Below, piece after piece: positions 33,173-58,599 of a stretch of 64,000 bases of DNA. The DNA is from Phytopythium helicoides (taxonomy: Eukaryota > Oomycota > Peronosporomycetes > Pythiales > Pythiaceae). The notes beneath the pieces are model-generated. The model made no database searches and had not been told where the DNA came from. It saw only the letters and a list, made by a program, of their open reading frames with translations. How positions within the stretch are numbered: position 1 is the first letter of the stretch; every line of letters starts with the position of its first letter. Both the position numbers and the translations under genes were made by a program. The stretch lies in contig JANFNE010000009.1 in NCBI GenBank assembly GCA_024867545.1, forward strand, positions 458,501 to 522,500, given 5' to 3'.

Positions 33173-35223
<2,051 letters not shown>

Positions 35224-35338
35224 TACATTGATGTGTTTCACAGAATGCTATAGAATAAAATCACTGGCTGCGTGAGACTGGCATTATCCTCGTGGGGGTA
35301 CGTGGCATGGAGAGAGTGATCCGGCAGCACCAATCAGG

Positions 35339-35623
35339 ATGGTGACGGCGCGCAGTCGTCATGTCGATGAGGGCGTCAAACTTGTCTCCACTATGTCGCC
35401 CCTCGAGATCTTTGCCTCGCCCGACCCTTTGCGTGGGCAAAAGATACTTTCCGCAATATCAACAACAACAAAAAGTCAGCTCCGAGAAGTGAGGGAGGCG
35501 AGCGCGTCAAACAGACAACGCGAACGCTACATGCAGCTGTACGCGGCTAAGCACGCCACGCAGCCTGCGCTTTCTGCCATCCCGCCACTCGCTTCTCACA
35601 AAGGTGGCCAGCCGCCAACTTGA
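35339..35623 (+). CDS. Possible small hypothetical protein
   Basis: A 94-codon ORF (MVTARSRHVDEGVKLVST...) between GH47 and the PDZ gene. It has a helical basic middle (QLREVREASASNRQRERYMQLYAAKH), no domains and no strong coding signal. It could instead be part of an unrecognised multi-exon gene or a chance ORF. Confidence 0.3.
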   Translation: MVTARSRHVDEGVKLVSTMSPLEIFASPDPLRGQKILSAISTTTKSQLREVREASASNRQRERYMQLYAAKHATQPALSAIPPLASHKGGQPPT

Positions 35624-35861
35624 GGTTTCCAAATGTAAAGAAAAAGCGTCGCGTTGTGGCATTTTTTTTTCCACATTTATGCAGCCGCGCTCTATTTCCT
35701 CCAATCCGATCCCTCCCTTCTCCCCATTTTATCCAATCCCATACTCCCTCCTCAAAAAAAAAAAAGCAAAAAAAAAAAAAATCAATCGCTAAAGCAAAGA
35801 AATGCCTTCTTTAGGCATAAGGTGGGTTCGAGCCGCCACTTCGGATCTCCCATCGAGCCTC

Positions 35862-36803
35862 ATGGGCGCCGCGCTGTGCTCGTGCACCGGCCGCGGCGAT
35901 GAGCGAGCGCTGGCGCTGACCGCTGGAGGAGACCGCCACCTTCATGCGCGTAATGGCAAGGCCGTGCCGCTGGCCATCGCGGCCAAGTACTCGAGCCTCG
36001 TGCCGCCGAGTCACCCGCTGCAGTACGCGCACCCGACGCCCGAGCAGCACAGCCGCGGCGAGACGTACGCGCTGTCGGACGACTGCCGCCACGAGGAGGA
36101 CGCGCTCGAGCAGCTACGTGCGCTGGGCCCGCCGTCCGCGCAGGCCATCGCCGACGCCTTCCGCGCCAAGCTGCACGAGCCGCCGCTAAGCCCACGCAGC
36201 AAGTTCCAGCTACTCATCACGCGCATTGGCGCGGCGGCAGACGACGACGACGACAGCGGCGACAGCGACGACGACGCCACCACCAGGACGTGCGACGACG
36301 ACAGCGACGCCGACGACCAGGACACGGACGACCCGCGCGCCAGGCGGAAGCGCAGGCGCGAGCGAGAGCGCTCGCTTGGCGTCTCGCTGCCTCCGCGACG
36401 CAAGAGCGCCAGCTACTACACGAACTCGTTCGCCGCCGCGGCCTACGCGGCGTCGGACGAGGACGCAGAGTCGCTCACGGAGGAGGACTGGAAGGCGCGC
36501 GCCAACCCGCTCATCACCATCATCGTGCCGCCCGGACCCTGTGGACTCGTGCTCCAGGTCGACCCCGACGCGCAGGGCCGGCAGCCGCCCACGGTCGACG
36601 GGTTCGTGCGCACCTACGACGGCATGAAGGGCACCATCGAGAACAGCGGGCTCGTGCGCAAGGGCAGCGTGCTGTGCGCCATCAACGACATTGACGTCAC
36701 ACGCATGCCGCTCAAGGAAGTTATCCGCACACTCAACCTGTCGTCGCACCTCGAGCGGCAGTTCGCCTTCCGCAACGGCTACGAGCACACGAGCACCCTG
36801 TGA
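35862..36803 (+). CDS. PDZ-domain protein with possible N-terminal acylation
   Basis: Single exon, 313 residues from the Met at 35862. This start gives MGAALCSC, a Gly2 plus Cys pattern seen in N-myristoylated and palmitoylated proteins, and is preferred over an in-frame ATG 60 bp upstream. The middle is very acidic (DDDDDSGDSDDDATT..DDDSDADDQDTDD), then a basic run RRKRRRERERS. The C-terminal 90 residues look like a PDZ domain: GPCGLVLQVDP, GFVRTYDGMKGTIENSG, LVRKGSVLCAINDIDVTRM and PLKEVIRTLN. A membrane-attached scaffold is a reasonable guess. The upstream leader contains long poly-A runs near 35755-35780. GC-rich codon use supports expression as a host gene. Confidence 0.75.
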   Translation: MGAALCSCTGRGDERALALTAGGDRHLHARNGKAVPLAIAAKYSSLVPPSHPLQYAHPTPEQHSRGETYALSDDCRHEEDALEQLRALGPPSAQAIADAFRAKLHEPPLSPRSKFQLLITRIGAAADDDDDSGDSDDDATTRTCDDDSDADDQDTDDPRARRKRRRERERSLGVSLPPRRKSASYYTNSFAAAAYAASDEDAESLTEEDWKARANPLITIIVPPGPCGLVLQVDPDAQGRQPPTVDGFVRTYDGMKGTIENSGLVRKGSVLCAINDIDVTRMPLKEVIRTLNLSSHLERQFAFRNGYEHTSTL

Positions 36804-37141
36804 GCGGGCAGACACGCGCGCTGCGGGGCGAGCATTGTACTATAACAGAGCGCGCGCGCCGCAGGAACAAGCAGAAGAAGAGGGAAGGGCCAGGAAGTGC
36901 GTAAATATGAATCCCGGGAATAGGTAGAGGAAGGCGGCAGACCCGGCCAGCAACTTGCGTGTGAAGGAGCAATGCCATGATAACATTTGTTCCTCGTCAG
37001 CGCTGCGTTTCCAGGACAAGCGGCCACGATCTATTGCGTCGGCGCCGCCCGCTGTCATTATCATTTTCTTTTGTTTTCCCGGATTGCAGTGAAGAGACTA
37101 CGAGCTACAAGCGGATGGATTCACTCACCTTCAGGAGCTCC
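36804..37141. other. Convergent 3' region between the PDZ and AAA-protease genes
   Basis: About 340 bp between two genes that end toward each other, so it should hold both 3' UTRs. No gene seen. Confidence 0.5.
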
Positions 37142-40038
37142 TCACTTGTTCTCCGGCTTGTCGCTCGTCGGCTCTTCCGCACTATCGCTACTCGCTGCCA
37201 CACCGGTCGTCGTTTCCGTGGCCGTCGCCTCCACAGTTGATACCCCAGCGACAGCGGCATCCTTCTTGGCAGCCTTGTCCGCCTCGTACTTGTCGGCCTC
37301 CTTCCAGGACTCCTCGACGAACTCCGTGTACGTCTTGTTGCCGCCGAACGGCCGCGGGCCAAGCACGCGCACAAGGTCCGAGTGGTTGATTGTCTCATTC
37401 TTCAGCAGTTCCTCTGCCAGCTCGTGGAGAACGTTCTGCTTGTCCCGCAGCAGCTCCTTCGTGCGCTTGTACGCTGCGTCAACGATTTTCTGCACTTCTT
37501 CGTCAATCACCTGCGCCGTCTTCTCACTGTAGAGCTTGTCGTTGCCGAAAGAGCCCTCCTCCTTTGGGAACGAGAGCTGACCAACACGATCGTTCATACC
37601 GTAGAGCTGCACCATCGAGTAGGCAATCTGCGTCACGCGGCGCAGATCGTCAGAGGCGCCCGTTGTGATACGGCCGTCGAAGTTGATGAACTCGGAAGCG
37701 CGGCCACCAAGAGCCATGCACATGATGTCGATCATCGCCTCCTTGCTGTGCAGCGCCACTTCCTTTGGCAGGTACTGCGCGTAACCGAGCGATCCCTTGC
37801 CACGCGGCACGATCGTCACCTTCAGCAGCGGGTCTGCGTGCTCCAGGAACCAACCAGCAACAGCATGGCCAGCTTCGTGGTACGCCACTGTCCGCTTCTC
37901 CTCCGGAGACATGATGCGGTTCGTCTCGAGACCGCCAATAACACGATCCGTGGCCTCCTCGAAGTCCTTGAACTGGATGCTCTTGCCATTGCGACGCGCC
38001 GCCACAATCGCAGCCTCGTTACAGATGTTGGCAATCTCGGCACCGGCGAAACCAGGCGTGAGCGCAGCCATACGGCGAGCAAAGTCATCCACGTTGCCGT
38101 CAAGATGCAGTCCCTTCAAGTGGACCTTGAAGATCTCGCGACGGCCCTTGATGTCGGGCTTATCGACCGTGATCTGTCGGTCAAAGCGACCAGGACGAAG
38201 AATAGCCTTGTCGAGAATGTCAGCGCGGTTCGTACCAGCAAGCACCACGACGCCCTCACTCGAGTTGAAACCATCCATCTCGACCAGAAGCTGGTTCAGT
38301 GTGTTTTCACGCTCGTCATTGCCTCCCGAAAAGCTGCCCTTACTACGCGCGCGAGCAACAGCATCAATCTCATCGATGAACACAATGCACGGAGAGTTCG
38401 CACGAGCCTCACGGAAGAGGTCACGCACACGGGAAGGGCCGACACCGACAAACATCTCAATGAAGTCCGAGCCGGAAATGCTGAAGAACGGGACACTCGC
38501 CTCGCCTGCGGTAGCCTTGGCTAGCAGCGTCTTACCCGTACCAGGGGGACCAACGAGCAGCGCACCCTTCGGGATCTTCGCACCAAGGTCGGTGAACCGC
38601 TTCTGGTTACGCAGGAACTCGACAAACTCCATGATCTCCTTCTTCGCTTCATCGACACCGGCGACATCCTTGAACGTGATGTTGATGTCCTCCTTGGTGA
38701 TCTTCTTGGCAGGGCTCTTGCCGACCTTGAAGATGTTGCCGATACCGCCGCCGCCGCTTCCGCCAGCACCGCCGAGACCACGCATCGACATGAGGAGGAA
38801 TCCGACAAGAACAATTGTCGGCAGGAACTTGAGCAGCTCACTTCCGATGTTGATCTCATTGGCGTACTGAACTGGGATGTAGTCGTGCGGCCGCAGACCC
38901 ATCTGGTGCTGTGCGTGCTCCAGCTGGCGCTCAAAGCTCTCGACGCTGCCAATGTTGAAGTAGTGCGACGCCTGGTTGTGCGCAGGCCGCATCCGCGCCG
39001 ACATCGATGACGGCGCGTGGCCGTGGTTGGTCTCGTCGTGGTGCTGCTGCTGCTGCTGGTACTGATACTGCGACTGCTGGCCGAATTCCTTCGGCCGAGC
39101 GTTGTTCCAGTCCGCATACTCGGCACCACCGCTCTCCATCGTATCTGCGTCGTCGCGGAGGAAGACCTTGACGTATTTTTTGTTGACGACGACAACCTTC
39201 TCGACCTTGCCGCTCTCCAGGAAGCTGTTGCGGAACTCCTGGTATGTGATCTCCTGCATCGGCTTCTCGACCGAGGCAAGGTCCGAAAGGAACAGTGCTG
39301 CAATCGCGAGTGGGATCAGGTATGCCATGCCCTCGCGTCCCGAGTTGCCGCCGCCGCTTCCGCCGCCAGCCGATCCGCCGCTGCCTCCGGTGGCCTTCTT
39401 ACCGCCGTCCGCCGTCTTGGAGCTCAGCTTCTTGACCTCACCTGCAGGCTTCTCTGTCGCTCCGGCTCCGCTGCCGCTCTTGGGCGGTCCCGCCTTGGAT
39501 CCATTCGCAGCGCCGCCGCCGTTCTTCGGGTAGAAGCGGCCGAAGCCCTTGGGGATCTTCTCGGCCAGCCACGCCGCGAGGCTGGTCGCCTGCCGCCGCT
39601 CCGCGCTGGTGACTGTTGCGAAATGCACAACGCTCGTCAGCTCCTCCGATCGACCGCGCAGCAGTCCGCCACGCCGCAGCGCACTGACGCGAAGAGAGCG
39701 GCCGCGAGGCCTGCAGCAGCTGCCGAGCGAGCGCCGCGTGGCGCTGCGGCGCCGTCTGCAGCAGCGCGCCGAACGCCCCGCCGCGCGTCAGCGTCGCGCC
39801 CAGTTGCTGCTCCCATTCACATCGAAGTCGGTCAGAATCCCTGCGATTCCCCCCTTTTCCATCTCGGAAAGTCCATCTCGGAAAGTCCACGTCGGCTCCA
39901 ACGCCGCCGACGGGCCGAGCGGAAGAGCGCGTGAGCCGGGCGCACCTGGTGCAGCGCGTGCATGAGCCGCGGGCTCTGGGGCTTGCGCAGCGCCGCGAGC
40001 GCGTCGCGCCGCAGCCGCCGCGTGGACGTCGCGAGCAT
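37142..40038 (-). CDS. Mitochondrial m-AAA protease (AFG3/YTA12-like FtsH)
   Basis: Exons 40038-39946, 39806-39689 and 39612-37142 give about 893 residues in phase. The first two exons are Arg/Ala/Leu-rich (MLATSTRRLRRDALAALRK, then HAALARQLLQASRPLSSR), a good mitochondrial presequence. A Gly/Ser/Lys linker, a first membrane helix (AYLIPLAIAALFLSDL), an intermembrane-space FtsH_ext domain and a second helix (FLPTIVLVGFLLMSM) follow. The AAA core has Walker A GPPGTGKT, Walker B CIVFIDEID and the second-region Arg residues in ILRPGRFDR. The M41 protease has the zinc site HEAGHAVAGW. Such hexamers degrade inner-membrane proteins on the matrix side. The donor of the second intron (GTCAGT) is unusual but phase-correct. 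Confidence 0.92.
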
Positions 40039-40313
40039 CTCGAGCCGGCGGGGAGGGGAGTGGGGGAACACCTCGGTCGATGCTCGCTCATCCAACAACG
40101 AGCCGCGACCTTCCAAACATAATCATATCATGCCCTTTTGGAGGTTTACAACCAAGCCTTACCTGAGCGGCATTCTGTGAATTGGAGTGATTGTGATGTA
40201 TATTATTGTGTCCGCCTCGTTCGGAAGACCGTCGCGCGACCTCCCCGCATGACTGGCGGGGAAGCCATTGCGTGGCTCCCCAATGCCAATTGCCCGACTT
40301 GGTGGAGCATTCG

Positions 40314-40321
40314 TTCAATTC
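40314..40321 (+). promoter_or_regulatory. Oomycete initiator-like element of RPS2
   Basis: TTCAATTC sits about 20 bp before the RPS2 ATG within GCATTCGTTCAATTC, close to the oomycete Inr consensus (CATTYYNCAWTTT). Short leaders are usual for ribosomal protein genes. Confidence 0.45.
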
Positions 40322-40341
40322 GCCCCCAAAGAACAGAAGAA

Positions 40342-41130
40342 ATGGCTGAGGTTGCTGAGAGACCCGCTGGTGAGCGTGGCGGCTTTGGCCGTGGCCGTGG
40401 CCGTGGTGGCCGTGGTGGCCCCCGTGGCCGCGGCCGTGGCCGCCGTGGAGAGGAGTCCAAGGAGTGGGTGCCCGTGACCAAGCTCGGCCGCCTGGTCAAG
40501 GAGGGCAAGATCAACTCGCTCGAGGAGATCTACCTCTTCTCGCTCCCCATCAAGGAGTGCGAGATCGTCAACCACTTCCTCGAGGCCTCGCTCAAGGACG
40601 AGGTCATGAAGATCATGCCCGTGCAGAAGCAGACCACGGCTGGTCAGCGCACGCGCTTCAAGGCCTTCGTCGCTGTCGGTGACGGCAACGGCCACATCGG
40701 CCTCGGCGTCAAGTGCGCCAAGGAGGTGGCCACGGCCATCCGCGGCGCCATCATCCTGGCCAAGATTGCCCTCGTCCCGGTCCGCCGTGGCTACTGGGGC
40801 CGTATGGTCGGTGCCCCGCACACGGTGCCCAACAAGGTGACGGGCAAGTGCGGTTCGGTCCGCGTGCGTCTCATCCCGGCCCCGCGTGGTTCGGGCCTTT
40901 GCGCCGCCCCGGCCACCAAGAAGCTTCTCGGTATGGCTGGTATTGAGGACTGCTACACGTCGGCCCGCGGCCACACGCGTACGCTCGGCAACTTCGTCAA
41001 GGCCACGTTCTACGCTCTGCGTGCCACCTACGCGTACCTGACCCCGGACCTCTGGGAGCAGCACTCGTTCCAGGCGTCGCCGTACCAGGAGCACACGGAC
41101 TTCCTGGCCAAGACCGCCATCAAGAAGTAA
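40342..41130 (+). CDS. RPS2: 40S ribosomal protein S2 (uS5)
   Basis: Single exon, 262 residues. The N-terminus is the usual RGG-rich extension ([20 protein letters not shown]), then [18 protein letters not shown], the S5 N-terminal domain ([21 protein letters not shown]) and the S5 C-terminal domain ([14 protein letters not shown], then [20 protein letters not shown]). The length agrees with other eukaryotic S2 proteins. It lies at the mRNA entrance of the small subunit and takes part in decoding accuracy. Codon third positions are almost all G or C, as expected for a highly expressed gene. The GGC/CGT repeats of the extension create several antisense ORFs, which are not genes. Confidence 0.98.
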
Positions 41131-41186
41131 GTTGCGTCCGCAACTTTGCAACCAAAGCCTGGTGATCCGAGGGGAAAGCGTGTGAA

Positions 41187-41290
41187 CGAGCGCTACGGTG
41201 CGTAGGTGTCGACCTCTTGGCGCCACGGGCTGTTGTGGTCTGGTTTTAGGAGAGCGCTGGGCGAGCGCTACGGTGCGTAGGTGTCGACCT
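41187..41290 (+). repeat. 29-bp direct repeat downstream of RPS2
   Basis: An identical 29-bp unit starting CGAGCGCTACGGTGCG and ending TGTCGACCT occurs at 41187-41215 and 41262-41290, 75 bp apart, in the RPS2 3' flank. The intervening sequence is unrelated to the unit. Confidence 0.9.
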
Positions 41291-41427
41291 AGAACAATAC
41301 AAAGGACCGCTTCGGCTCTAAAATGACAATTCGTTCCATCCATGTTCGAGTGCGCTGCTGTCTCTGCTCGGTCCTTCGAGGTGAGGAACACAGCACGTCG
41401 TGAAGCAAGCATGCGTCCCTCCTCTAT

Positions 41428-42040
41428 TCACTTGTCCTTCTTGGTCTCTGCGTCCTCGGCAATAATGCCCTCTGCCGTGGCCGCCGCCTCGCTGTGGTAC
41501 TGCTTGATGCAGTCGACGCTTTGCTGCACTAGGAACTGGATGATGGGCGTGATGGTCTGCAGCTTGCCCTGCTGCACGCTGGCCACGTCCACGACGCGCT
41601 GCTTGAGCGCGTCCATGCGCGCCGCGTTGCCCTCCTGCTCCGCATCCTTCAGCTGGTCGCGCACGGCCTTGAGCTCCGCGCCGGCCACCAGCACGACCTC
41701 GAACGCGAACAGCTCGTTCAAAAAGTTGCTGCATCCACCACTGTCAGCGCCAATTCCTTCCCTCGCGCCACCCGCAACCACCACAGCCAGCCACTCACGT
41801 TCTGCTCGCCATGCACAAACCACCCCATGAACGTCAGCTCCATCCACAACAACAAAAGAACCCAAACGGAGCTCCATGAGGGTCGCACCCGAGCTGCTTG
41901 TCCTTGTCATCCGGCTGCTTGAGACTCGCGCGCGCCGCCGCCTGCGTCCACCGACGGTACAGGAACGCGGCGACCGGCAGCATGAGCAGCAGCCCGTGGG
42001 CCACGCCGCGCGCGTACGAGCTCCAGCAGTCGTCGCCCAT
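41428..42040 (-). CDS. Small membrane-anchored helical protein, exon structure uncertain
   Basis: The first exon starts at 42040: MGDDCWSSYARGVAHG, a hydrophobic segment LLLMLPVAAFLYRRW and a basic polar stretch to KQPDDKDKQ. The last exon (about 41728-41428) encodes NFLNELFAFEVVLVAGAELKAVRDQLKDAE, a heptad-like coil and QTITPIIQFLVQQSVDCIKQYHSE, ending at ETKKDK. Between them a small exon reading LTFMGWFVHGEQ (about 41840-41800, followed by a good GTGAGT donor) probably belongs, but I could not close the first junction in phase. The protein would be about 170 residues with one membrane helix and a coiled coil. The function is unknown. Its 5' end faces the Fanzor ORF, about 420 bp away. Confidence 0.6.
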
Positions 42041-42463
42041 GAGCCAAGCAGCGCGTCAGTCGCCAAATGAGGCAGTGGCTTCTTCCGCTAAGGATGCAGT
42101 CCCACAGTTGCTCAAACGCGTTGCTGACTACCCGGTCGCCACTCCCAGGCGTACCAGTCAAAGTGTTCCGATTATTATAGTAGAAACAATTGCGGTTTGA
42201 CTTTGACGAGATGACGCAGCCTTCACCATGTCAGCAAAGGCACATGTCAGCAAAGGCACACTGCGTCGCAATCTTGGCATAGCGCCAATGAGTCATTATG
42301 GTGCTGCAGTTTGACAGTTACGTTCTCACAGCACACTTTCGCTCCGAAGGCTTCTTCGCGACGACCTCATTCTCTGCCTCTCATTCGCGAGGTCGCTTTC
42401 GCCGCCTCCAGCACTGCAGCGAGCTCACTAACCTCCGACCTTGGTGGTTGGAGATTGCTGGTC
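42041..42463. other. Region between the 41.4-kb gene and the Fanzor ORF
   Basis: About 420 bp. It includes the promoter of the minus-strand gene and the 5' flank of the Fanzor ORF, whose frame is open back to 42311 but without an earlier ATG. It carries the 16-bp tandem repeat listed separately and CGTCGCAAT at 42264-42272, whose inverted copy lies at 44608-44616 just after the Fanzor stop. Confidence 0.6.
42227..42258 (+). repeat. Perfect 2 x 16-bp tandem repeat upstream of Fanzor
   Basis: CATGTCAGCAAAGGCA is repeated exactly twice (42227-42242 and 42243-42258), about 205 bp before the Fanzor ATG. It may be part of the element end or of a promoter. Confidence 0.9.
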
Positions 42464-44593
42464 ATGCCCAAGCGCAAGAAGACCGAGGAGGAAAAGGAAT
42501 GGGACATACACCACTCGTTCACGAGCGTCACGTGCAGGCTTCAACAGTTGTGTGAAGACCCCGACCTCATAGATGAGATTCAGCGATCCTGCGTCGTGTT
42601 CAAGCAGATCACGTCGGAGGCGTGGCACCTCGCGAATATGCACGTGCTCCGTTGTTTGCAAGCTCAAGGTCAGCTGCCGCGTCTTGATCAGACGTTCTTC
42701 TCCTGGTGTTGCCACGCCGTTCGACCTCAGGGTCTCGGTGCAAGAAGCTCAGCGACCAACGATTTTCGAGAGACGGCTAGACTGTACCGTGCCGAGCGAG
42801 CGCGTGTTGAGGGCTACACGCCGCCGGATACAGCTTCACACGACAACGATCAGCTGTTGTGGCTCGCGGAGCAGATGCGGATTAACACCAGGAACATGAT
42901 CGTGTCGAACTTCGAAAAACGACTTACAATGTACGCTCGACTGTTGCTCGAAGAGCGCCAAGAAGAGCTACGTTTGATGGCGATGGAGGATAGGCCAGCT
43001 CTGGAGACTACTTTGATGGTGATGGAAGATGCGCCACAGCACAGAGAGCGTTCGACCACGACACCCCACCCCCACCAGAACGATGAGCAGCCAGCTGTCA
43101 CCCGAGCTGAGATCAACCGCCTTGTGACTGCGTGCTACCGACCGAGCAACAGCGAGTTCACAGTGGATGAGCAGGAGCTTCGTGGATGGCTCGGGCTTGA
43201 ACCACACCAATCTGTCATTGAGAGAAATCTTGAGCACTTCGTCAAGAGGCTGTATGTCATCCTCCAGAAGGTCGAAGCCTCGCAGCGCCGGGATCCAAAT
43301 AAAAAAGGCATTCGATCATTCTCTCTGCTCCCATGTTCGGCGAGTTATGTTCCGAGCCACATTATCATCAACAGAACAACGCTACACGGATTCTGCGCCA
43401 GGGTGTTCGAGTCGACTGGCGGTCAAAACGCACTGCTAATGCCTCAAGGCGCGAGAGCTGGAACGCTCAGCACTGCCGTTACCACCCAGCAGAAAGGACC
43501 CATACTCCGACAGCTATTCTCTGTGAGCAAGTTTGAGACGATGAAAGTAGATGCAGGCATTTCAAAGGCGGAATTTAACGACATGGACCACGATAGTAAG
43601 GCGCCGTTTGCAAGCCAACTATTTGCTCACCAGATAACGTCGGACGGCTACTCTGCCTCTGTGTTGCTGACTCGTCCAAAGTCAGCTCACGACTTGAAAA
43701 TCGAGGAGCTCCAGAAGGAGCGCAGAAAAGGCAAGAAGCGACGGAAGCTAGCGGCGGAAGCTGAGGTCGACTATGAGTGGGAGTCGCTGCCAAGCGACTT
43801 CTCGCCAGACGTGCTGATCGGAGTCGATCCTGGGCTGCGCAATTTGTGCACGGCTGCCCACGAGGGCGAGGTCTTACCAACTGTCAACAATGCCGTTCAG
43901 CCACGCAATAACATCACGCAGATTCATGCGCGGGAGTATCGCCATCTTGCAGGCATGAACAAGCAGCGGTTTTGGTTTGAGAATCTAAAAAAGCGCTATC
44001 ATCGGTACAACGATGTGCTGACGAGGCTCCCTTCGTTTAAGTGCTCCGACTTTGACGTCTACTTGCAGCACCTTCGAATCTACTGGGCGAGCGTCGCGTA
44101 CCTGGTCGAGTTCTCCGCCAGCCATGCCTTCCGAAAGCAGCGGTTCATGGTCAAGCGGATGAAGGCCAAGACTCTGGATGCAATGGCCAAGCGTGTCGTT
44201 CCTGTTGCAAGCCCGCAAGTTATCGTCGGGTATGGTGATTGGAGTGTTCGCGATGGGATCCGCGGCCACGGCCCCACGCCAGTGAAAGGGTTTCGGCATG
44301 CGCTGCAGAAGCGAGCGAGGGTGGTAACTATCGACGAGTTTTGCTCGAGCAAATTGTGCTCCAGTTGCCACCAGCCACTTCGCAATGCAGTGCTGCCGCA
44401 GTTTCGCGACGGCGAGACGGAGCTGATCACCACCAAGAATGTCCTGCGCTGTCACTCCAGCGATTGCAGGGCGCTCTTTTGGGATCGTGACGTCAATGCG
44501 GCGCTCAACATGCTGACTCTGCTCAAGGCAAAGCTGCGTGGAGACCCACGGCCAGCAGCTTTCCGTCGAGGAGCAGCAATGGTGCATGCGTGA
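42464..44593 (+). CDS. Fanzor: eukaryotic TnpB-like RNA-guided DNA endonuclease
   Basis: Single intact ORF, 709 residues from the first in-frame ATG. The start is followed by the basic cluster PKRKK, and a second cluster KERRKGKKRRK lies at about residues 419-428; both look like nuclear-localisation signals. The N-terminal 400 residues are helical and diverged, as expected for the wedge/REC part. The RuvC core is complete: Asp455 in LIGVDPGLRNL (RuvC-I), Glu625 in TIDEFCSSKLCSSC (the RuvC-II region in the Fanzor-type rearranged position), Cys632/Cys635 and Cys663/Cys668 forming the Zn ribbon, and Asp676 in FWDRDVNAALNML (RuvC-III). Fanzors are OrfB/TnpB homologues of eukaryotic transposons that cut DNA guided by an RNA from their own locus. 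The gene lacks introns and its codon use looks less GC-biased than that of its neighbours, consistent with mobile origin. No other transposase is next to it. Confidence 0.92.
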   Translation: MPKRKKTEEEKEWDIHHSFTSVTCRLQQLCEDPDLIDEIQRSCVVFKQITSEAWHLANMHVLRCLQAQGQLPRLDQTFFSWCCHAVRPQGLGARSSATNDFRETARLYRAERARVEGYTPPDTASHDNDQLLWLAEQMRINTRNMIVSNFEKRLTMYARLLLEERQEELRLMAMEDRPALETTLMVMEDAPQHRERSTTTPHPHQNDEQPAVTRAEINRLVTACYRPSNSEFTVDEQELRGWLGLEPHQSVIERNLEHFVKRLYVILQKVEASQRRDPNKKGIRSFSLLPCSASYVPSHIIINRTTLHGFCARVFESTGGQNALLMPQGARAGTLSTAVTTQQKGPILRQLFSVSKFETMKVDAGISKAEFNDMDHDSKAPFASQLFAHQITSDGYSASVLLTRPKSAHDLKIEELQKERRKGKKRRKLAAEAEVDYEWESLPSDFSPDVLIGVDPGLRNLCTAAHEGEVLPTVNNAVQPRNNITQIHAREYRHLAGMNKQRFWFENLKKRYHRYNDVLTRLPSFKCSDFDVYLQHLRIYWASVAYLVEFSASHAFRKQRFMVKRMKAKTLDAMAKRVVPVASPQVIVGYGDWSVRDGIRGHGPTPVKGFRHALQKRARVVTIDEFCSSKLCSSCHQPLRNAVLPQFRDGETELITTKNVLRCHSSDCRALFWDRDVNAALNMLTLLKAKLRGDPRPAAFRRGAAMVHA

Positions 44594-44730
44594 GCAGCAG
44601 CGGCGAAATTGCGACGTGCGCGAGGGAGTTAAGCGTACACAAGTTTGAATCTGTATGCACTGGAGGGAAACTGTAAAACCCCACAATGCAAAACCCCAAA
44701 ACCTAAAAAAAAATTGGGGTTTTACCCTAC
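44594..44730 (+). ncRNA. Candidate Fanzor guide-RNA scaffold / element 3' end
   Basis: The 137 bp after the Fanzor stop contain an 11-bp perfect inverted repeat, GTAAAACCCCA (44673-44683) and TGGGGTTTTAC (44715-44725). A nested alternative arm AAAACCCCAA (44690-44699) pairs with TTGGGGTTTT (44714-44723). In TnpB and characterised Fanzor loci the guide RNA is made from the 3' end of the ORF and the adjoining noncoding end of the element. Position and fold therefore fit, but the assignment is inference; a simple terminator hairpin is the alternative. Confidence 0.4.
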
Positions 44731-44870
44731 TTGACAAGGAGGCCTCCAAGCCTTGGAGGGCTCGGCCCGCCACTACATCGCGAGAAGAAACGCAGCGCGC
44801 GCGCCTCCATCGCCCCCGCCCGCCTGCCAGCCTGCCAGTCTGCCAGCCAGTCAGCCAGCCCCGTAGCCTC

Positions 44871-45910
44871 ATGGTGCACGTCAACAAGCCGCTGGTGCTC
44901 GGCGCCGTGTCGGCCGTCGCGGTCGCGGTGCTGCTGTTCGCGCTCTCGCGCTCGAGCGACAAGTCGGTGCGTGGTCATTGGTCGATGGGTGGCCCTCGCG
45001 TTTCGGTGGTCTAATCGAATTTTGTGCCGAGTGCAGACCGGAAAGAAGGAGAAGAAGGAGGACGCCGTGCGAGAGGTGCCCAACCTGCACAAGGAGCAGC
45101 TGCTCAGCATCCTAGAGACCATTTGCACGCAGATGGGCCAAGTCGTGGTGCGTACCAGCGCGCTGCCGTGCTCAACCCGCGCTGCCGTCGGAATGCTCAT
45201 GAACGCGTGTGCGCGCAGATGCAACTGGCCAAGCTCGAGGCCAAGATCCGCCAGGAGTCGTCGCAGAACGGACGCTCGCTGCCAGAGGACCAGCTCGCGT
45301 CCTACCTCATGGGACAGTTTGAGGAGGCCATGAAGGCCATCGAGGCCCAGGTGTACGCCAAGTACCAGACCACGGAGGACGAGGTCAAGATCGCGACCGA
45401 GTTCTACGAGGAGGAGGAGGACAAGGACGTCGCCAACGCGGTTGCCAAGCTCCAGGAGCTCTACCGCGTCATGACGGGCGGCGGCTTCAGCGACGTCGAG
45501 GTCCCGGCCGACCTCACGCTCAACAAGGTCCGTCCAATCCGGCTGATAGTTGCTTCCATCGTGTGTGTCGCTGACGGATCGGTGTCCAGTTCATTGATAT
45601 TATGCAGGAGACGATGGAGTCGCTGAATGTTGCGATGGAGGAGGTGTGCCTCGAGGTCAAGGAGCTCAACCCGGAGAACAAGGAGGAGGCCATCAACCAG
45701 CGATACGTCAAGCGCGCCGACAACCTGTCGGCCGAGATCCATGCCAAGCACGGCCTCACGCGCGAGGTGCTTCAGGCCGCTATGATGAAGTACCAGCAGG
45801 AACCGGCCTTCCTCATGGCCATGACGGAGCTGCAGCAGCAGCAAGCCGAGCGCTTTGCGGCGGCTGCGTCCATCTTCAACGGTGAGGTCAACATGGGCCT
45901 GACGGAGTAA
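44871..45910 (+). CDS. Membrane-anchored coiled-coil protein of unknown function
   Basis: Exons 44871-44966, 45037-45147, 45219-45527 and 45590-45910 give 278 residues in phase. An N-terminal hydrophobic anchor (LVLGAVSAVAVAVLLFAL) is followed by a Lys/Glu-rich linker (TGKKEKKEDAVREVPNLHKEQ). The body is helical and charged: LSILETICTQMGQV, MQLAKLEAKIRQES, YQTTEDEVKIATEFYEEEEDKDV, FIDIMQETMESLNVAMEEVCLEV and AERFAAAASIFNGEVNMGLTE. I recognise no family. The high GC3 and clean splice sites support a conserved host gene. The anchor suggests attachment to the ER or another membrane, with the helical body in the cytosol. It lies 280 bp after the Fanzor stop, so its promoter abuts the possible element end. 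Confidence 0.75.
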
Positions 45911-46128
45911 GGTAGGAAGAGGTGGAGTGTTGAAGCTCGCGAGGCGTGCGCGACTACCGCTGAAGTGATATCTAGATCGGACCCTGCCAGCCCAGTGGTA
46001 GTCGCTCGCGTCTCTGCCGATTGCGAAATACAAAACAGAAAAAAAAAATCTCGAGCCGCAATGTCTTGTCGTTCTTGACGCTTCACGAAGATGGGATTGC
46101 CGACACCAATCACAGCGTCAATGTGCCG

Positions 46129-49100
46129 ATGACGAAGCGCTTGCTATTTATACGCCCGCAACAGGCTCGCTTGAATCAACAACGCCCACTTGTGCAAGGA
46201 CTTTGGCAGCGCGACTCTCAGCGCACCATCATGCAGCAAGAGCGGCTGGAAGGATGGATGGTGCAGCAGATTGAGCACGCCAACTTGGCCAAGGAAACAT
46301 TGCTGCAGCTACCGACTCGACCGGTTGCTCCAGCATCGCCAAAGTTTTCAACGGACAGTCCAGGAAAAAGAGCACGCCCAGTTCCTGCGTCGCCACGGGC
46401 ATTTGTTTCTCCACCAGAACCCTCTGAGCATCGAGCAGCATCATTCCCAGCTTCAACGCCCCGGCAACGCCATTTGCGGCTATTCGACACAAGAGACGCT
46501 GCTCACGCGGAGAGTGGGGGTGTTGCGACGAACGAAGGCCCGATCGATAAGCAGTGGCGATCGCAGTTTAGCTCTCGCTCCGGACCGTTCATCGAAAGTG
46601 GGCGTGTAGACCGCACCAAAGTGTTGAGAGGAGATGGTGGTAGCTCCAATGGCGAGCCCAGTACCACAAACGAGACAGACTCGCCACTACTCCTCTGGGG
46701 CTTGCCTCGGGAGCAAATCCTTGATTTCATTCGCCAGTCGTTGTTGCCGTCGTCTTGGGTCGAGTGTGTTCTTGCTTGTTGGTCGTCTATGGAAAGGTAG
46801 TTAGTTCAGCCGTCACTTACCCCAACTTCGTGTGCCTGTGTTCTGCTGCAGTCACACACAACTAAGCGAGCGGCAGCCTGCGTCTCTAACGAACCGAGAT
46901 ACCGACAACGAATTGAAATCCCCGGGGCATGCTAAAGTGTACGTAGATGACTTCACCTCACCAATCAAACGTTCACTAATGGGAAAACAGACCTCCTGTG
47001 CAGCTTCCGATTGTGTCATCAAAATCTACACCGACAACCGCCAGACAAAGCATAAGCCAACCAAAGCCCAATTCTACAAGAGTAACCCCTCGACCACGAA
47101 CTTCTCCGCTTCCATCTACCGGACTATCGCTCGACACTTCCTCCCGTGTTATCTCTCCACGCCCAGAGACGAGGTAAGTTCATTGTGCAGAACTATGTTG
47201 TGCCGCTTTCCTTACAGCCTAGTACTTGCAGGATCGCCAAGCTGCTGGACGACTTGCGCTCGAACCCAGCTATGCTCGCTGCCTTTCTAGTGAGTTTCAT
47301 GGTCTCCTCAAATCGATAAATGGGCTAATCCTTGGTGGTTTGATAACGCTTGCAGAAAGATGTAGAGCGATCCCAGCAAGAACAGCGCGCAGTACGTGCT
47401 CCTTCTCGAGCACAGTCATGCACAAGATCAACTAACAACTCTCTATCACTGACAAACATTCAACAGCGAACTAAAGCGTCTGACGTGAGTCTTTGCTTCT
47501 TCTCCGAGTCCTGCGTTGCTCACGGTCTTGACTTTAGCTATTGCGAACAAATATCGGTAGAAACTTCGTGAAAACAGAGAGCGAGCAGGAACTGCGCGTT
47601 CTGCTGCAGATCGAGAGGAGCGGTGAGTTTCAATCCAAATACTTTGCTTTTCGTTTCATGACGCTGACAAACTTCTATGCTAGTAAGAAACTAGCCGCGC
47701 AGCGTGTCGAGCGTGTCCGCCAAAAGCGAGATAGAATCGTTAAAAGCGAAGACGACCGCTACTCTGCTACATTGGCCGAATACCAGCGTCGAGTAAAAGC
47801 GAAGGATGCAGTCCCGTCACCCCCGTCCGAGGCGGAGCGAGCGCAACGAATCACTCTGCGCAGGTGTCGCTTGTGGTTGTCCTCCATTGCGTTCTCTGTT
47901 ATCAGTAGCAAATGGCACGCCCAGCTCGTGAATACCAAGGTGCTACTCCAGATTGCACGTGCGCAAAACCGAGCAGCTCGCATCATTCAGTCACTGTGGC
48001 GCAAGTGGAAGTGGCAAAACGCATCGCGACACACCGTTGTTATCTACACGTGGCTACGTCGCTGTCTGTGGAAGCTACTTTTCCGTGTGCGAGTTGCTCG
48101 GAAGATTCGAAGCGCGACACTATTGCAGCGCTTCATGATTGACAACTTTTCAGGAAGTCGTGAGACGCGAAACTTCAACCACATGATGGCCAAATGGCGT
48201 GGCAAGGTCATTCACGCACAACGTCTTGGACTCGCCTTCGTATTATGCTCGCGTGCTCGCCTCCATGCATTATCTCTATGGTGGGATACCGTTGACCATG
48301 AACGCCAACGAAACGATCGTCAGCGTGCTCTCGCTGGAGGAAATGAAGATGACGACAGATCAGGTAGCAAGCGTCCGAGCAGTAGCGCGAGCTCCACGAG
48401 CAGTAGTGCTTTTCGAAGAGTTACATTCCGACCATCTCGAAAAGAACCATCACTAGTGGTTGAGCCAAGCACACCGCCTGGAATGGACGGTATTTCTAGT
48501 CCAGGTGGCAGTCGGCTTGGATATCGCCGCAGTTCGCGAATGATTCTGCAGCTCGATGCTGTGGAAGATAAACTTTCAGCAATGCAGATGCTAATGACCC
48601 CCGTAGAGATCCAACGCCTTCAACAGCAAGCCCCTCGTGTAATCCGTGTCTCAAAGAGGTCACCACGTTCATTTCTGATGCCTTTATGGGAAGGTCCTCA
48701 CCAATTGTTTCATGAATTCAGTATCAAGATGCGCCTACTGCTAGATTACCTGGTGTCGGCTAGGCGAGAGTACATGAAGAAACTACGAGCCTACTACGAG
48801 CATATCGCCTGCGCCAGCTATGCCATGTGAGTGAAGCATCGTCAAAACTGAGTAGGCAGGCGGTAGCTAACAACTTGGTGCCTGCTATAGGGAGGTGAAA
48901 TTGGACGATGCCCGTGCTATCGTGCAGAGCTCTGTCTCCTGGCGAGCGACAACGGGAACTCCAGCTCCAGGAATTCCGTTGGCAAAACCAAGTACGTTAG
49001 CCCCACCAGTATTTCAGCTCTACTCGCGACCGGAGGCCATGGTGGCGTTGGTCAAGCGTGGCGTACAGCTTACTCTTGAGAACGACCCAGAGCTAAAGGC

Positions 49101-49311
49101 TGCTGTTGAGCGGCAAGCACAACGTCGAACAGCTGCGGTGGCTTCTCCTTTTGGTCCTCCGACCAATCGCCCATCCATGGCATGGCCAGCTATGAAATCC
49201 CCTTTGCCACCGTCGATGAAGAAAAGCGTCGTTGCAAACCCGCCGTTGAGTGGGCAATCTGTCCGAGCTCAAGTGACTTCAACATCTAGCCCAAGTAGCC
49301 CTTTCATTTGA
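46129..49311 (+). CDS. IQ-motif, Arg-rich helical protein (7 exons, one 18-nt microexon)
   Basis: Exons 46129-46796, 46852-47173, 47218-47289, 47356-47391, 47467-47484, 47538-48826 and 48891-49311 sum to 941 residues in phase. The N-terminal 300 residues are Pro/Ser-rich and probably disordered. A helical coil (RIAKLLDDLRSNPAMLAAF, QQEQRA) leads to a long Arg/Trp-rich helical part with an IQ-like motif RAARIIQSLWRKWKW and further KIRSATLLQRFMID, which are possible calmodulin-binding repeats. Ser-rich stretches and a C-terminal disordered tail follow. No enzyme domain is seen. Cytoskeletal or ciliary IQ proteins have this look. A 61-bp GTGAGT...CTAG interval at 47623-47683 resembles an intron but would break the frame, so I kept it as coding. 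Confidence 0.7.
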
Positions 49312-49537
49312 AAAGCAACAACGACAACAAAGCGTTTGGAGTGGTGAAAAAAAAAAAAGCTACTGTGATATTTGTGACATCGTGGCTGGAAAACGAAAGA
49401 TAACTTAGAAGAAAGAGGTGTTGGCGTGTCGGCGTGCATGTGTCAGTCTGTCGGATCCGGCTGATGGTCGGTCGGTCCCCGCTCTGGGTAAGCTTCTCGT
49501 TGCTGCTGGCGCTCTCCAAGGCTGCAGTCACCCTAGT

Positions 49538-51889
49538 TTATACTCTATCGATCTCCTCGGCATGCATGGCGCGAGGCGTGAGACCTGTGCTGGATGAGGC
49601 GGACCCGCGCAGCATCTGCAACATGTCCGAATGGGTCAAGTTGCTCGCGCGCATGGCCAGCGTCTCACTGCCGCAAACCATCGATCCCTCGTCGTCGTCC
49701 TCGTCCTCATTGTCCGACTCCTCAATATCCTCGAACATGGGGATGCTGTCATCCCAGGACAAGTTGATCTCTGCCTCTGTTTCACGAATTGAGTTGTTCG
49801 ACTTCTCGCCACCATGGCTGATCCGCAGTAACTCGCTAGGTACGTTCAAAATCGGCGTCTTCTTTTGGTTGGCAAGTTGTGAGTCATCAAGATGCTTTGC
49901 CTTGGGTGCGCGGCCGCGCGCAAGTGTCACAAGCTCAAGCTTGAGCATCGGCGAGTGCAGGTCGATCGGGATCGCCTCGACAAGGCCGATCGGTTGAGAA
50001 ATACCCTTGAAGTTGTAGTACCCATGTGACTTGAACTGGAAAATCGTCGTCCCCGATACTTCTGCAAGAGTGTCTGATTTGAGCACAACCTGGCTTCGGT
50101 AGGGCCCAGAGCTGAATGCGTTCCAAGCGTCGCCACCGATAAGCACCTGCGCTCCGTGGGCAGCCTTGGCAATACGCGCGGTCTGATTCACGATGTTGCC
50201 AAAGTAGTCTGCACGCCCGCTTGTCTTGTGTGGACTTACACTTGCAGGGACACCCGTCTCGATACCCATCGACATGGAGAACATGAGCTCCTTGTTTTCA
50301 CTCTCTCGGTTCCATTCGCGGAACTTTTGTCGAATGCGCAGCTGAAACTCGCCGCACCACAAGATGGCCGACGCTGGATTGAAGAATGCCAACATGAAGT
50401 CTCCTTGTAGTTCCTGGCACTCGTAGCCGTTGTGTTTCCGCAACAACTCGCGCGCGACCATGCAAAGAGTCTTCACCCGGTCAGCGAGCTCTTCCGCGTG
50501 GCATCGTACCAGAGGACGAGCACCTTCGATGAAAGTGAAAACCATGGTGACTGGCTTTTGAGCTGACGGGGCGTCCCGCATTCCCAGCGAGAGCTGCACG
50601 GGAGAGTTTAGGCTCGGGAACCGCCGACAGTCGAGGTCCCGCGGCAACAGCAACATCAACAGCACTTCGTCGCCTAGCACAGCATGGCAACCAAGATCTT
50701 CGACGACCGGGTTGCCTAGCTGGACAAGCTGTTCCTTCAGCCGATCCCAGACGCTATCACTAAGAATGATTTGTCCGCCATGGGCATACTCGCTGACGGT
50801 CTTGGTCCACTTGACGGCATCTGACAGCGATTTGTCGGGGGCTTCGTCTGGATCAGCGGTGTGGATCACCATCCGAACGCGGAACCCGCGGTAGAGCAGC
50901 ATCTTCTTCTTCGACTTGCCGTTTGTCGTTGCGTAGACTTCTTTTGTATCGTCAAATTGCTTCAGAAGTTTCTCGTTCCACGCTGCGTACACCAGGCTGA
51001 GTTGCAGTGACAAGCACCACTTTGCGGCATGGAACTCGGAGGCGAACGCGATGACGAAGAGCCCGGAGCGCGAGTGGCTCAGAATCTCTTGGCCTCCATA
51101 CTCGGACGCAAGTCGCGAGAGCACCGTGTGTTCGTACAGGAGCTTGGCCTCCTCCATCAGCTCCTTGGCCTGACCCATCATTTCGCGGAAGCCCTGCACG
51201 GAGACCTGTACAATCACCACCTTTTCCCACGGCACGGGCGTGAGATCACCCAGGTCCGTCTTGATCTTGGCCATGGTCGACTTTTTCATGAGGGAGCTGA
51301 GCGTCGACTGGTCCGACCCGGACATTTCGCCCGGGCGAGTCGAGTCCATGTCGGAGCCCGAGAAGCCCACACGCATCTGCTGCTGTGAGTGGGACGGCTG
51401 CCACGCGTTGAATCCGCTCGATGCGGCCGTGCTGGTTCCACTGCTGAGGCCGCTAGCGGCGCTGCCTGGGTTGCTGAATGTTCCATCGAGGTGGCGGCTG
51501 GACCGCGGCGCGGCGTGCGCGAGGTCTAGCGTGGGTCTGTCCCTGGCGTTATGCGGCAGTCCCCGGACGACCTGCTGCTTGGCGTCGATGGTGAGCGACA
51601 CGTCGGCGTCGTCGCCCGTGCTGGCGCGCAGGTATGCGTTTGGGTTGTTGCGGAACGAGTCGCTGGACGTGGCCGAGTTCTTCTCGTCCGTGTAGGACGT
51701 GAACTCGAATCCCCGCGGCGACTGCACGCGTCCCCACCCGCCGGCGCCTCCGTCCGCGCCGCGCCGCGTCTCGTCGTCCAGCGCGCCGTCGTCGCGGTGC
51801 ACGTGCTGCAGGTATGGCGCTAGCTCTCGCACAATGTCGTTGCGCGGCAGGCACTTCTCCAGCACGCGCATGCAGCACCACCAGCACAT
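49538..51889 (-). CDS. Tandem class III nucleotidyl-cyclase-like protein, probably inactive
   Basis: Single exon, 783 residues. After a 230-residue Ser/Gly-rich region come two class III cyclase-homology domains. The first (about 238-440) starts EKVVIVQVSVQGFREMM and includes GLFVIAFASEFHAAKWC and EYAHGGQIILSDSVWD. The second (about 470-650) starts PVTMVFTFIEGARPLV and includes LQGDFMLAFFNPASAILW, GIETGVPASVSPH and GRADYFGNIVNQTARIAKAAHGAQVLIGGDAW. In active cyclases the first strand reads F-x-D-I-x-G; here the metal-binding Asp is missing in both (VQVSVQG, FTFIEGA). The second Asp (QGDF) and the Asn/Arg pair (NIVNQTAR) are kept in the second domain. A regulatory or binding role is more likely than catalysis. 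The acidic tail contains ESDNEDEDDDEGS. Confidence 0.78.
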   Translation of the reverse strand: MCWWCCMRVLEKCLPRNDIVRELAPYLQHVHRDDGALDDETRRGADGGAGGWGRVQSPRGFEFTSYTDEKNSATSSDSFRNNPNAYLRASTGDDADVSLTIDAKQQVVRGLPHNARDRPTLDLAHAAPRSSRHLDGTFSNPGSAASGLSSGTSTAASSGFNAWQPSHSQQQMRVGFSGSDMDSTRPGEMSGSDQSTLSSLMKKSTMAKIKTDLGDLTPVPWEKVVIVQVSVQGFREMMGQAKELMEEAKLLYEHTVLSRLASEYGGQEILSHSRSGLFVIAFASEFHAAKWCLSLQLSLVYAAWNEKLLKQFDDTKEVYATTNGKSKKKMLLYRGFRVRMVIHTADPDEAPDKSLSDAVKWTKTVSEYAHGGQIILSDSVWDRLKEQLVQLGNPVVEDLGCHAVLGDEVLLMLLLPRDLDCRRFPSLNSPVQLSLGMRDAPSAQKPVTMVFTFIEGARPLVRCHAEELADRVKTLCMVARELLRKHNGYECQELQGDFMLAFFNPASAILWCGEFQLRIRQKFREWNRESENKELMFSMSMGIETGVPASVSPHKTSGRADYFGNIVNQTARIAKAAHGAQVLIGGDAWNAFSSGPYRSQVVLKSDTLAEVSGTTIFQFKSHGYYNFKGISQPIGLVEAIPIDLHSPMLKLELVTLARGRAPKAKHLDDSQLANQKKTPILNVPSELLRISHGGEKSNNSIRETEAEINLSWDDSIPMFEDIEESDNEDEDDDEGSMVCGSETLAMRASNLTHSDMLQMLRGSASSSTGLTPRAMHAEEIDRV

Positions 51890-52739
51890 TCTGGCCAGCG
51901 CGTCGAGTCCTGGGCGTTTCGGGGGCTACCGCGGCTTCCACCGAGCCGATCGGAGCGAGAGCGGCACTCTCCGGGAGCCAGGCGCGTCGCGGAGCCGGGG
52001 CACGCGCTGCCAAGTCGCGCCGGTCGCGCGCTGCCGCTGGGTGTGCGCCGCCGCCGACGCCTCGCGGCCGCAGTCTCGCTTGGCGCTCGCTCGCGGGGGG
52101 CGCGCGCTTGGACTATGGGCGATTGTATGCCGCCCCCCTTTTTATTTGCCGCACAAGCCAACAACTTGGTGGCTTGCTGGGCGGAAAAATGCCAGTGGCG
52201 CGAGGTTTTGAGGTGTTTCCCATACAAACGCCGAGAGAGTGCGATTCGGCGAAACCAGAATCCCGGGTAGTCATTTTTTTCCCTTTCCCCCCCCACTGGC
52301 TGCTAGTGTCGCTCTTGCGCTCAGTATGGGATGGGGGATGACCAGCCGACTCGCGCGTAATCCGAGCGTGAGCGTCACTGCTGCTTTCTCCGTAGAGGTG
52401 AGAAGAAGGACGGAGCTGCTCGATGGGCTCGGCAGGTGGTTGGCGATTGGATTGCGCTCGGCGATTGTTTGGATTGGAAGGTCCACGAGCCATCGGCGAG
52501 CGCGTCCGACGCATGGAGCGCTCGCTCGCTGGCGCACGCGCTTGAGAGAAGACGAGCCCCCATCCTAGGAGCAGCGTGGGTGGCGAGAGGATACCACGGT
52601 GGATTCTTCTGTCTGGAGGGGCAGCAGTGTGTAGGAGGCATCCGCTGCGACCGTGCAACACGACACTCAAACGCGGGGTTTACGTGGAGAGTGGCGCTGC
52701 AACACGCAGCGAGCAAGCAATCATCGTTCAGTGCGCATT
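51890..52739. other. GC-rich intergenic region
   Basis: About 850 bp between the 5' end of the cyclase-like gene and the 3' end of the carrier gene. Many overlapping Arg/Ala/Pro-rich ORFs occur on both strands, as expected from GC-rich sequence; none has a domain. Nothing supported. Confidence 0.5.
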
Positions 52740-53825
52740 TTAGGACGACTGCGAGTTTGCGAGGATCATCATCAGCGTGATGTACATCTGGATCTTCTCC
52801 TTGATCATGAGCATGACGGCGGACGAGAGCGCGCCCTGTTGGAGTGCGTGATACGAACAACCGCAAAGTTAGTCGATGGACAGACATGTCACCCCGACAA
52901 CAACACGGCGAGACACACCTTTGTGAGCTCCGGCCAGAGACCGCGGTAGAGCGCCAGCGGACCCTCCTCCGTGTACACGCGCTGCAGCGTCGACACGATG
53001 CCGTCCTGCTCGGCGGCGGGCGCCTTCTCGCCGCTCTCGAGGTCGCCGGCGATGGCAGCGCTCTTCTTCTTCTTGGACTGCAGGATCACCTTGGCGCGGA
53101 TGTACGGGAACAGCAGCAGCGTCGCGATAGACCGCGCCACCGCGCCGAGCACGAACGCCTGCAGGCAATAATGCAATCGTTTGGTCAGTACAAAAGTCGC
53201 CACTGCCTCAAATGGAGTTGGTAAAAGCGCATCGCACCTCGAACGCGCCGAGCGACTGCGCAGCCTTCTTGAAGCGCGCGAGGTAGAGCACCTTGACGCG
53301 CTCGAAGACGGTGTACTGGATGGCGGGCTGCAGGCATAGCACAAAGTAGGCGTGGAAGCCCTTGTAGAACCCTCCGATGCCGCTCTCCTGGAACACGGAG
53401 CGCACGATCTGCACGACGCCGGCGCTGGCGTCGCCCTTGGCGCCGGTCTGCAGCTTGGTGGCGATGACCTCCATGGGCAGCGTCACGGGCAGGTGCACGA
53501 ACTCGCTCAGGTATCCGATGGCGAGGTTGGTGCCCGTGCCGATGGGGCTGCCGTCGCGCGGCGCCACCACCTGCGCCAGCAGCGTGTACGCGTAGAAGTA
53601 GAAGAACTTGGAGGTCGTCGACTCGGCGATCTTGTACTGGATGCCGCTGTAGAGCGACCGCAGGGCGGCCAGGCGGCCCGCGCCGTCGCCAGGCAGCGCC
53701 GCCGCGCCCGACTGCAGCCGCGTCTTGAGCGTGTCGAGCGGGTACAGCGCGCCGGTGGCCACGAAGCCGCCGACGCCCGCGGCGGTGGCCGCCGCCAGCA
53801 TCTCCATGGGTTTGCTCAGCGCCAT
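52740..53825 (-). CDS. Mitochondrial-carrier-family protein, peroxisomal adenine nucleotide carrier-like
   Basis: Exons 53825-53238, 53158-52919 and 52835-52740 give 307 residues, the normal carrier length. The three repeat signatures are YPLDTLKTRLQ, LPMEVIATKLQ and FPYIRAKVILQ. The third lacks the acidic residue of the PX[DE]XX[KR] motif, as in plant peroxisomal adenine nucleotide carriers (PNC), and SLYSGIQYKIAESTTSKFFYFYAY after the first repeat also matches PNC. Such carriers bring ATP into peroxisomes in exchange for ADP/AMP to support fatty-acid activation. The substrate is inferred from similarity only. GC3 is high. The start at 53825 follows a GTG-started upstream reading frame that I did not use. 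Confidence 0.85.
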
Positions 53826-54333
53826 TTTGGCTCCTGCGTCAGTCACGTCGGGTTGTGTGGTGAAGCGGCGTGGGGAGGACGGGCGGAACGGTACCGAGTA
53901 CCTCTCGAGGTGTTTGTTTTACGTGAGCAGTGCTGGCTTCAACAGCTGACTGGATGCTGATGAGCGGGTGGATCGTGGGCGCCCATGAGCGGTGGCTGAG
54001 CAGTATGCACACGAGCGACTGGGAGGCGATGTCGCATGAGAAGCCTCGTCATGGAGAGAGACGTGATGAAGGTAGTGCTGAAGCAGTGGCTGGTTGGGCT
54101 CGAACTGGAGCGAGGGGCTGGCTGCTGCGTCAAATGCGGCAGCTAGGAATGGCATGGACGCTAGTGGTGACTCTGCAGGAGGCATTGGAACTCTGTATGA
54201 AGACGAGCGTGGTCGGTTGAAGAAGAGAGTTCATTCATCAAATAAAAAAAGGAGGCAGCGTGCCATGCCGGCTCGACAGAATACACGCATGAAATGCCCG
54301 ATGCACGCGAGACTTGACCCCGTCGGAGGCGAC
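53826..54333. other. Intergenic region
   Basis: About 510 bp between the carrier promoter and the ceramidase 3' end. An 88-codon minus-strand ORF (53919-54185) lacks any recognisable feature. Nothing supported. Confidence 0.45.
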
Positions 54334-58554: not shown

Positions 58555-58599
58555 CACGTGGAGAAGGTCCTTGCGCTCACACCCACTCAAGAGCCACCA

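Follow-up and report, generated by a model that had tools for sequence, protein, structure and literature searches.

A predicted Fanzor1 nuclease gene

We analysed a 64,000-nucleotide stretch of the Phytopythium helicoides genome (assembly GCA_024867545.1, contig JANFNE010000009.1, positions 458,501 to 522,500 of the forward strand; hereafter the window), in which one open reading frame had been singled out, from the letters alone, as an intact Fanzor gene. The frame and its signatures are arranged as follows:

42464..44593, forward strand: Fanzor1 ORF, 709 codons plus stop, single exon, frame unbroken (Pfam, profile and fold matches)
42470..42481, forward strand: N-terminal basic cluster KRKK, residues 3–6, NLS-like by sequence pattern
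43733..43747, forward strand: second basic cluster KKRRK, residues 424–428, NLS-like by sequence pattern
43826..43834, forward strand: RuvC-I catalytic Asp455 in the DPG motif, residues 455–457 (sequence and alignments A1 and A4)
44336..44338, forward strand: RuvC-II catalytic Glu625 at the rearranged (Ealt) position (sequence and conservation)
44357..44467, forward strand: C4 zinc ribbon, C632-x2-C635 ... C663-x4-C668 (sequence)
44489..44491, forward strand: RuvC-III catalytic Asp676, within WDRDVNAA (sequence and alignment A4)

The original prediction described the frame accurately: 42464–44593 on the forward strand translates to 709 residues with one terminal stop, Asp455, Glu625 and Asp676 lie where it had placed them, the four zinc-ribbon cysteines and both basic clusters (NLS-like by pattern) are present, and the glutamate does occupy the rearranged RuvC-II position, six residues ahead of the zinc ribbon (E625-x6-C632-x2-C635; the Ealt arrangement as defined in a passage of PMC10711439). 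The Fanzor1 motif given in an excerpt of PMC3627910, D-x(125-275)-[TS][TS]xx-[C4 zinc finger]-x(5-50)-RD, is represented by D455, S628-S629-K-L, C632/C635/C663/C668 and R675-D676. The C-x4-C spacing in the second half of the ribbon is also present in GtFz1.

Conservation of these residues was assessed in alignment A1 (22 rows including the window, L009, which, of 30 genomic loci, leaves out L022 and L024 with one internal stop each and L026–L038, which are partial or contain stops) and alignment A4 (23 of 26 public proteins, leaving out the fusions P0006 and P0021 and the fragment P0011); a further alignment, A2, comprised seven of ten proteins, without P0006, P0009 and P0010. All 22 rows of A1 have D455, as do 20 of the 21 A4 rows that have a letter at this position. 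Counted in the same way over rows having a letter, E625 is conserved in 19 of 19 rows of A1 and 18 of 18 of A4, and D676, which follows R675 after the zinc ribbon, in 17 of 18 rows of A4. The frame is not accidental, because homologous copies keep it together with D455 and E625; a chance open frame at 42464–44593 is excluded by this homology (seven genomic copies in the same frame, with no stops in the compared stretch).

The protein matches PF07282 at 29.3 bits (cut-off 26.3), and its predicted structure has the Fanzor1 fold, being nearest overall to solved Fanzor1 structures among the families listed in the fold comparison. The homologue searches, which scored only those candidates sharing most words and may therefore miss relatives beyond oomycetes, returned 9, 9 and 16 public proteins matching the window protein. 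No DDE or other transposase family was found among these matches, and the homologues group with Fanzor1; one distant match that its source labels ‘transposase’ (P0008) carries the TnpB-type domain PF07282. Both checks thus upheld the original assignment to Fanzor, and together with the motifs they support the view that 42464–44593 encodes a Fanzor1 protein, a predicted RNA-guided nuclease.

The closest public homologues (within the set P0002–P0026) are P0003 from Nothophytophthora sp. Chile5, at 49–53% identity, and P0002, at 50–56%; further named homologues come from Globisporangium and Phytophthora, and many are partial. They are deposited as hypothetical proteins or under other names (for example, DptG), and no listed name says Fanzor. 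Fanzors in oomycetes are already published: the portion of Bao and Jurka 2013 concerned lists counts for Pythium ultimum, three Phytophthora species and Albugo laibachii (PMC3627910). The window gene is a well-preserved member of that known family. Among the titles listed in our literature searches, none was devoted to an oomycete Fanzor.

Genomic copies and the boundaries of the element

Comparison with the genome (49.06 Mb in 100 contigs) identified eight near copies: the window copy (C90) and seven others with 89–91% protein identity to it, located on C58 (five within 35 kb, C58A–C58E), C6 and C47. Seven of the eight are full length (709 codons compared); the C47 copy was compared over 680 codons, its match stopping at residue 685 within a frame that continues to 1035 codons. 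No stop occurs in the compared stretch of any copy, and the catalytic residues and zinc ribbon are retained in the full-length copies. Across all 28 pairs dN/dS is 0.13–0.25; between the window copy and the other seven, dN is 0.042–0.050 and dS 0.213–0.265. These values support purifying selection over the history of the family, not of the window copy after it landed. The original suggestion that an intact core reflects recent activity or selection is supported in part, by the purifying selection on the family and by the empty sister site described below; the dN/dS values do not bear on use of the window copy since landing.

More distant subfamilies are found on C22 (63% identity, three copies), on C24, C72, C2 and C16 (51–54%) and on C4 (51%), with the rest lower; one C16 copy and one C22 copy contain an internal stop. 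The genome also holds a second, more numerous family matching the C-terminal half at about 34–37%, in at least 17 places and with open frames of 662–663 codons. One piece of it (L064, C45:228600–229500) keeps the DPG motif, the shifted glutamate and RD, has histidine in place of the first zinc-ribbon cysteine, and lies at a place absent from the genome's 46 PF07282 matches. Six other loci (L001–L006, at C79:629226, C79:639817, C70:143218, C1:965356, C1:961874 and C32:606039) give TnpB/Fanzor-like zinc-ribbon matches of 74–81 bits, much stronger than those of the window family, and are perhaps Fanzor2 or TnpB-like genes.

The five C58 copies lie, in both orientations, in a GST-like gene array (C58:200000–240000, L040–L043), for which the GST label is based on Pfam for one gene. 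C58A and C58E have a GST flank in common through a 3-kb duplication. C58C adjoins a GST frame without a start, and C58D is placed where an ankyrin-repeat-like gene begins (the naming of both genes relies partly on reading of the sequence).

Comparison of the copies defined the following element:

42189..44675, forward strand: element core, with left end ATTGCGGTTTGAC and right end CTGTATG plus an 18-nt tail

Leftward of 42189 the copies diverge into unlike partners, and the likeness of the window copy ends at ATTGCGGTTTGAC. At the right, seven copies reach the same run of bases despite unlike surroundings, and their agreement halts at 44657, with CTGTATG (CTGTATA in C58C), 64–66 nt past the stop codon. 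Beyond this point C6, C58C and C58D have an 18-nt tail in common, which by eye resembles window 44658–44675 (12 of 18 bases against C58D). A sharp right end is also seen in four other subfamily pairs or groups (one judged by eye); in the C22 pair the right end is not fully shared, one copy diverging about 30 nt earlier.

The left-hand partners are of at least three kinds: the last exon of a GST gene (C58B, C58D and C6), an oppositely oriented GST gene (C58A and C58E), and, common to C58C and C47, a segment of another gene. The captured pieces of C6 and C58D encode GST residues 265–310. In C58D these are preceded by a short piece of the preceding exon and then a 71-nt GT...AG stretch, positioned as is the intron of the intact neighbouring GST gene, and the captured piece of C6 starts at the first bases of the GST intron. 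The C47 copy carries GST residues 1–28 (96% identity) in the opposite sense. As the captured GST pieces retain intron sequence, we rejected an origin by retrotransposition of spliced mRNA.

We ran one script for target-site duplications on four insertions (C58D, C6, C58B and the window). Exact 9-bp repeats lie at the limits of the copied unit in C58D (AATGATAAG) and C6 (ACAATCCGT); random boundary pairs given equal freedom reached at least 9 bp in 0.12% of 6,000 trials. Elsewhere the repeat is at most 4 bp (C58B) or 4 bp (window, at the core limits), and at the limits of the window insertion as judged against C57 it is 0 bp. Between the left and right ends of the window copy there is no inverted pair of at least 11 nt, nor is there one of at least 10 nt between the ends of C58D or C6; shorter ones may exist. 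Searches for empty sites with the right flanks returned, for C58D, only itself and 12 partial matches of 44–361 bp and, for C6, only itself, and thus revealed no empty site for either.

The right end and its predicted guide RNA

The region 3' of the stop codon, where conservation ends sharply, contains the following:

44594..44657, forward strand: predicted guide-RNA (omega RNA) scaffold, 64 nt, ending at CTGTATG
44611..44641, forward strand: 31-nt run, invariant in the seven copies keeping the right end
44616..44638, forward strand: predicted terminal hairpin, stem GTGCGC (44616–44621) / GCGTAC (44633–44638), modest covariation support
44658..44675, forward strand: 18-nt tail, the expected guide position (20-mer search)

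A search of the genome with a 24-base core of the scaffold, allowing up to 3 mismatches, found seven sites, each an exact match at the right end of a copy; the reversed pattern found none, and no orphan right end was detected beyond the seven Fanzor copies. In those seven copies, fourfold sites vary at 75 of 228 positions (33%) in codons 1–608 and at 8 of 49 in codons 609–709 (Fisher p 0.025). Invariant runs of up to 57 nt occur within the ORF, though these are coding, and the 31-nt length is not decisive by itself.

The hairpin has 92.6% of its cells paired over nine distinct rows from four subfamilies (slid controls 8.7–69.6%). All 6 bp are intact in two subfamilies, and two of the six pairs are broken in C22a and C4. 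Two of six pairs have changed on both sides. With 11–57 of 500 shuffles scoring as high, covariation lends the predicted hairpin modest support. By single-sequence folding, none of six right-end stretches from the four near subfamilies was better than its shuffles (z −0.15 to 0.91), and five stretches from more distant copies gave z of −2.9, −4.0, −2.3, −0.8 and −1.3, three of them below −2. The first two values belong to segments 3' of Fanzor-like genes at L026 (C84) and L028 (C27), between which paired changes in a long hairpin are visible by eye; this segment is a good candidate for the guide RNA of a distant subfamily.

A 20-mer starting at 44658 has no second genomic site at up to 2 mismatches. 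Against the empty C57 site its best agreement is 11 of 20 bases, under the shuffled mean of 11.9, and homing into C57 with the present guide is not supported, because the tail has no match there. An Rfam scan of 42000–44900 returned one sub-threshold hit, ohsC at 26.1 bits where the gathering score is 50, which we attribute to chance. By analogy with SpuFz1, the right end fits the position of a guide RNA, and the RNA is a predicted one.

An empty sister site and the movement of the element

A DNA search with window 41800–45300 found that C57 matches both flanks and lacks the element:

39601..47147, no strand: segment present without the insertion on C57 (empty site; DNA alignment, 92.7–94.3% identity)
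42174..42188, no strand: 15-bp filler between left flank and element, absent from the C57 sister site
44676..44713, no strand: 38 bp of filler next to the right flank, parts of which recur in it in inverted form (GTAAAACCCC vs GGGGTTTTAC)

The alignment comprises window 39601–39809, 39902–42173 and 44714–47147 (39810–39901 unaligned, the C57 stretch compared ending at 47147), and C57 has 18 bp in place of window 42174–44713. Window 30000–39700 matches C57 at 93%; likeness is known for 30000–47147. A search with 47000–60000 gave about 100 bp at 82% on C57 and no long match, and missed the query itself as well. The matches to 20000–38000 were filled by repeats; 20000–22060 is a multi-copy repeat with many genomic matches, including repeated identical-scoring pieces on C50.

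Synonymous divergence between C90 and C57 is 0.03 in a gene that we take, from reading its sequence, to be that of ribosomal protein uS5, and 0.064 in the ORF at 45602. Because C57 is empty and this divergence is small, the window copy probably landed after C90 and C57 split. The right filler, whose inverted pair (I6) is 11 nt long, 100% complementary and 31 nt apart, looks like the product of repair synthesis. The left filler includes TATAGTA; C58C and C58D have the similar TACTATA at their right ends, so a short terminal inverted repeat is possible. No near donor for the window copy was found in the assembly, every other member of the eight being at dS of at least 0.21; cut-and-paste, donor loss, introgression or loss from C57 are possible reasons.

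The last of these would make the locus old, with C57 losing the element rather than C90 gaining it. We consider this doubtful. The dS of 0.21–0.26 separating the window copy from the others, set against the low C90/C57 values, and the missing donor would suit such a loss, yet in the 5-kb piece of C57 that we read, the 18 bp at the site are unrelated in sequence and nothing matches the element, and cut-and-paste, donor loss or introgression would also explain the missing donor. It is also possible, if on balance unlikely, that the copies are passengers of segmental duplication or ectopic recombination in the GST array, and that the window copy was captured at a break in C90. The duplicated GST flank of C58A and C58E is what such events would leave, and the window junctions (18 bp lost, and filler holding inverted pieces of the flank, of the kind that break repair leaves) and the lack of a target-site duplication there and at C58B (at most 4 bp) point the same way; against it stand the exact 9-bp repeats around C58D and C6, which chance rarely produces, and the agreement of seven copies to an identical right-end run in unlike surroundings.

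We judge it highly improbable that the Fanzor1 fold has been kept but co-opted, by the host or the element, for a non-cutting role such as RNA-guided binding. Purifying selection on the copies would fit a binding role equally, and five copies are located in a GST gene array; however, the full-length copies retain the catalytic residues and zinc ribbon, and domestication should leave a gene at a single fixed locus, whereas here there are eight copies and a sister site that is empty.

We therefore think it very probable that the Fanzor1 gene of the window is intact, is carried by a small, multi-copy insertion element and encodes a predicted DNA-cutting nuclease whose guide RNA likely derives from the element's own right end. 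In the mechanism we propose, the 3'-terminal part of the transcript (some 64 nt past the stop, plus the tail) would be processed into a scaffold-and-guide RNA, as is reported for SpuFz1. The Fanzor protein would bind this RNA and cut both DNA strands at a TAM-adjacent site matching it, and repair of the break would favour keeping or copying of the element. Having no transposase of its own, the element would be moved in trans by a host DNA transposase that recognises mainly the right end and occasionally takes left neighbouring DNA along. The 9-bp repeats at C58D and C6 are compatible with a Mutator-like transposase. The genome also has Helitron Rep-type domains, with 33 Helitron_like_N matches; several of the frames that contain them are open for about 2000 codons and may be intact Helitrons. 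A further idea, which we offer tentatively and think quite unlikely, is that the guide-RNA end is the one fixed end and that only this right end is acted on by a foreign transposase, so that each jump would take different left-hand DNA along. If true, such one-ended jumping would make the Fanzor element a shuttle for pieces of detoxification (GST) genes.

The role that a Fanzor plays for its element is debated in the field, and this locus allows guide RNA, target choice and mobilisation to be studied on natural insertions: one genome offers an intact copy, an empty site with readable junctions, full-length relatives and a predicted guide-RNA segment. The family also supplies further cases of a Fanzor element carrying pieces of host genes, one of them with its intron.

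SpuFz1 of Spizellomyces punctatus (PDB 8gkh, 9ceu–9cez) is 16–18% identical to the window protein. As described in excerpts of PMC10432273, its elements carry inverted repeats of 30 nt, 134 ghost loci lack the gene, and its RNA takes in about 75 nt from the stop to the right end, followed by a 14–15-nt guide; unlike these elements, the window family has no terminal inverted repeats that we found, and its 24-mer occurs only at seven Fanzor copies. The remaining parallels come from the sections of Bao and Jurka 2013 (PMC3627910) that describe individual elements. The MuDr-type Fanzor1 elements ROr-4, PBl-3 and MCi-4 make 9-bp target duplications, as at C58D and C6, but have MuDR-like inverted repeats, none of which were found in the window family. 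The Fanzor1 elements CRe-1/2/3 of Chlamydomonas and MCi-2 of Mucor combine, like the window family, a fixed 3' end with variable or captured 5' regions, and target duplications with a lack of inverted repeats. The CRe ends resemble those of known Helitrons and their duplications vary in length; the duplications of MCi-2 are 11–12 bp, compared with 9 bp at two sites in the window family and none at the window copy. Relative to CRe and MCi-2 as described there, the captured pieces of the window family are distinguished by a GST exon with intron sequence.
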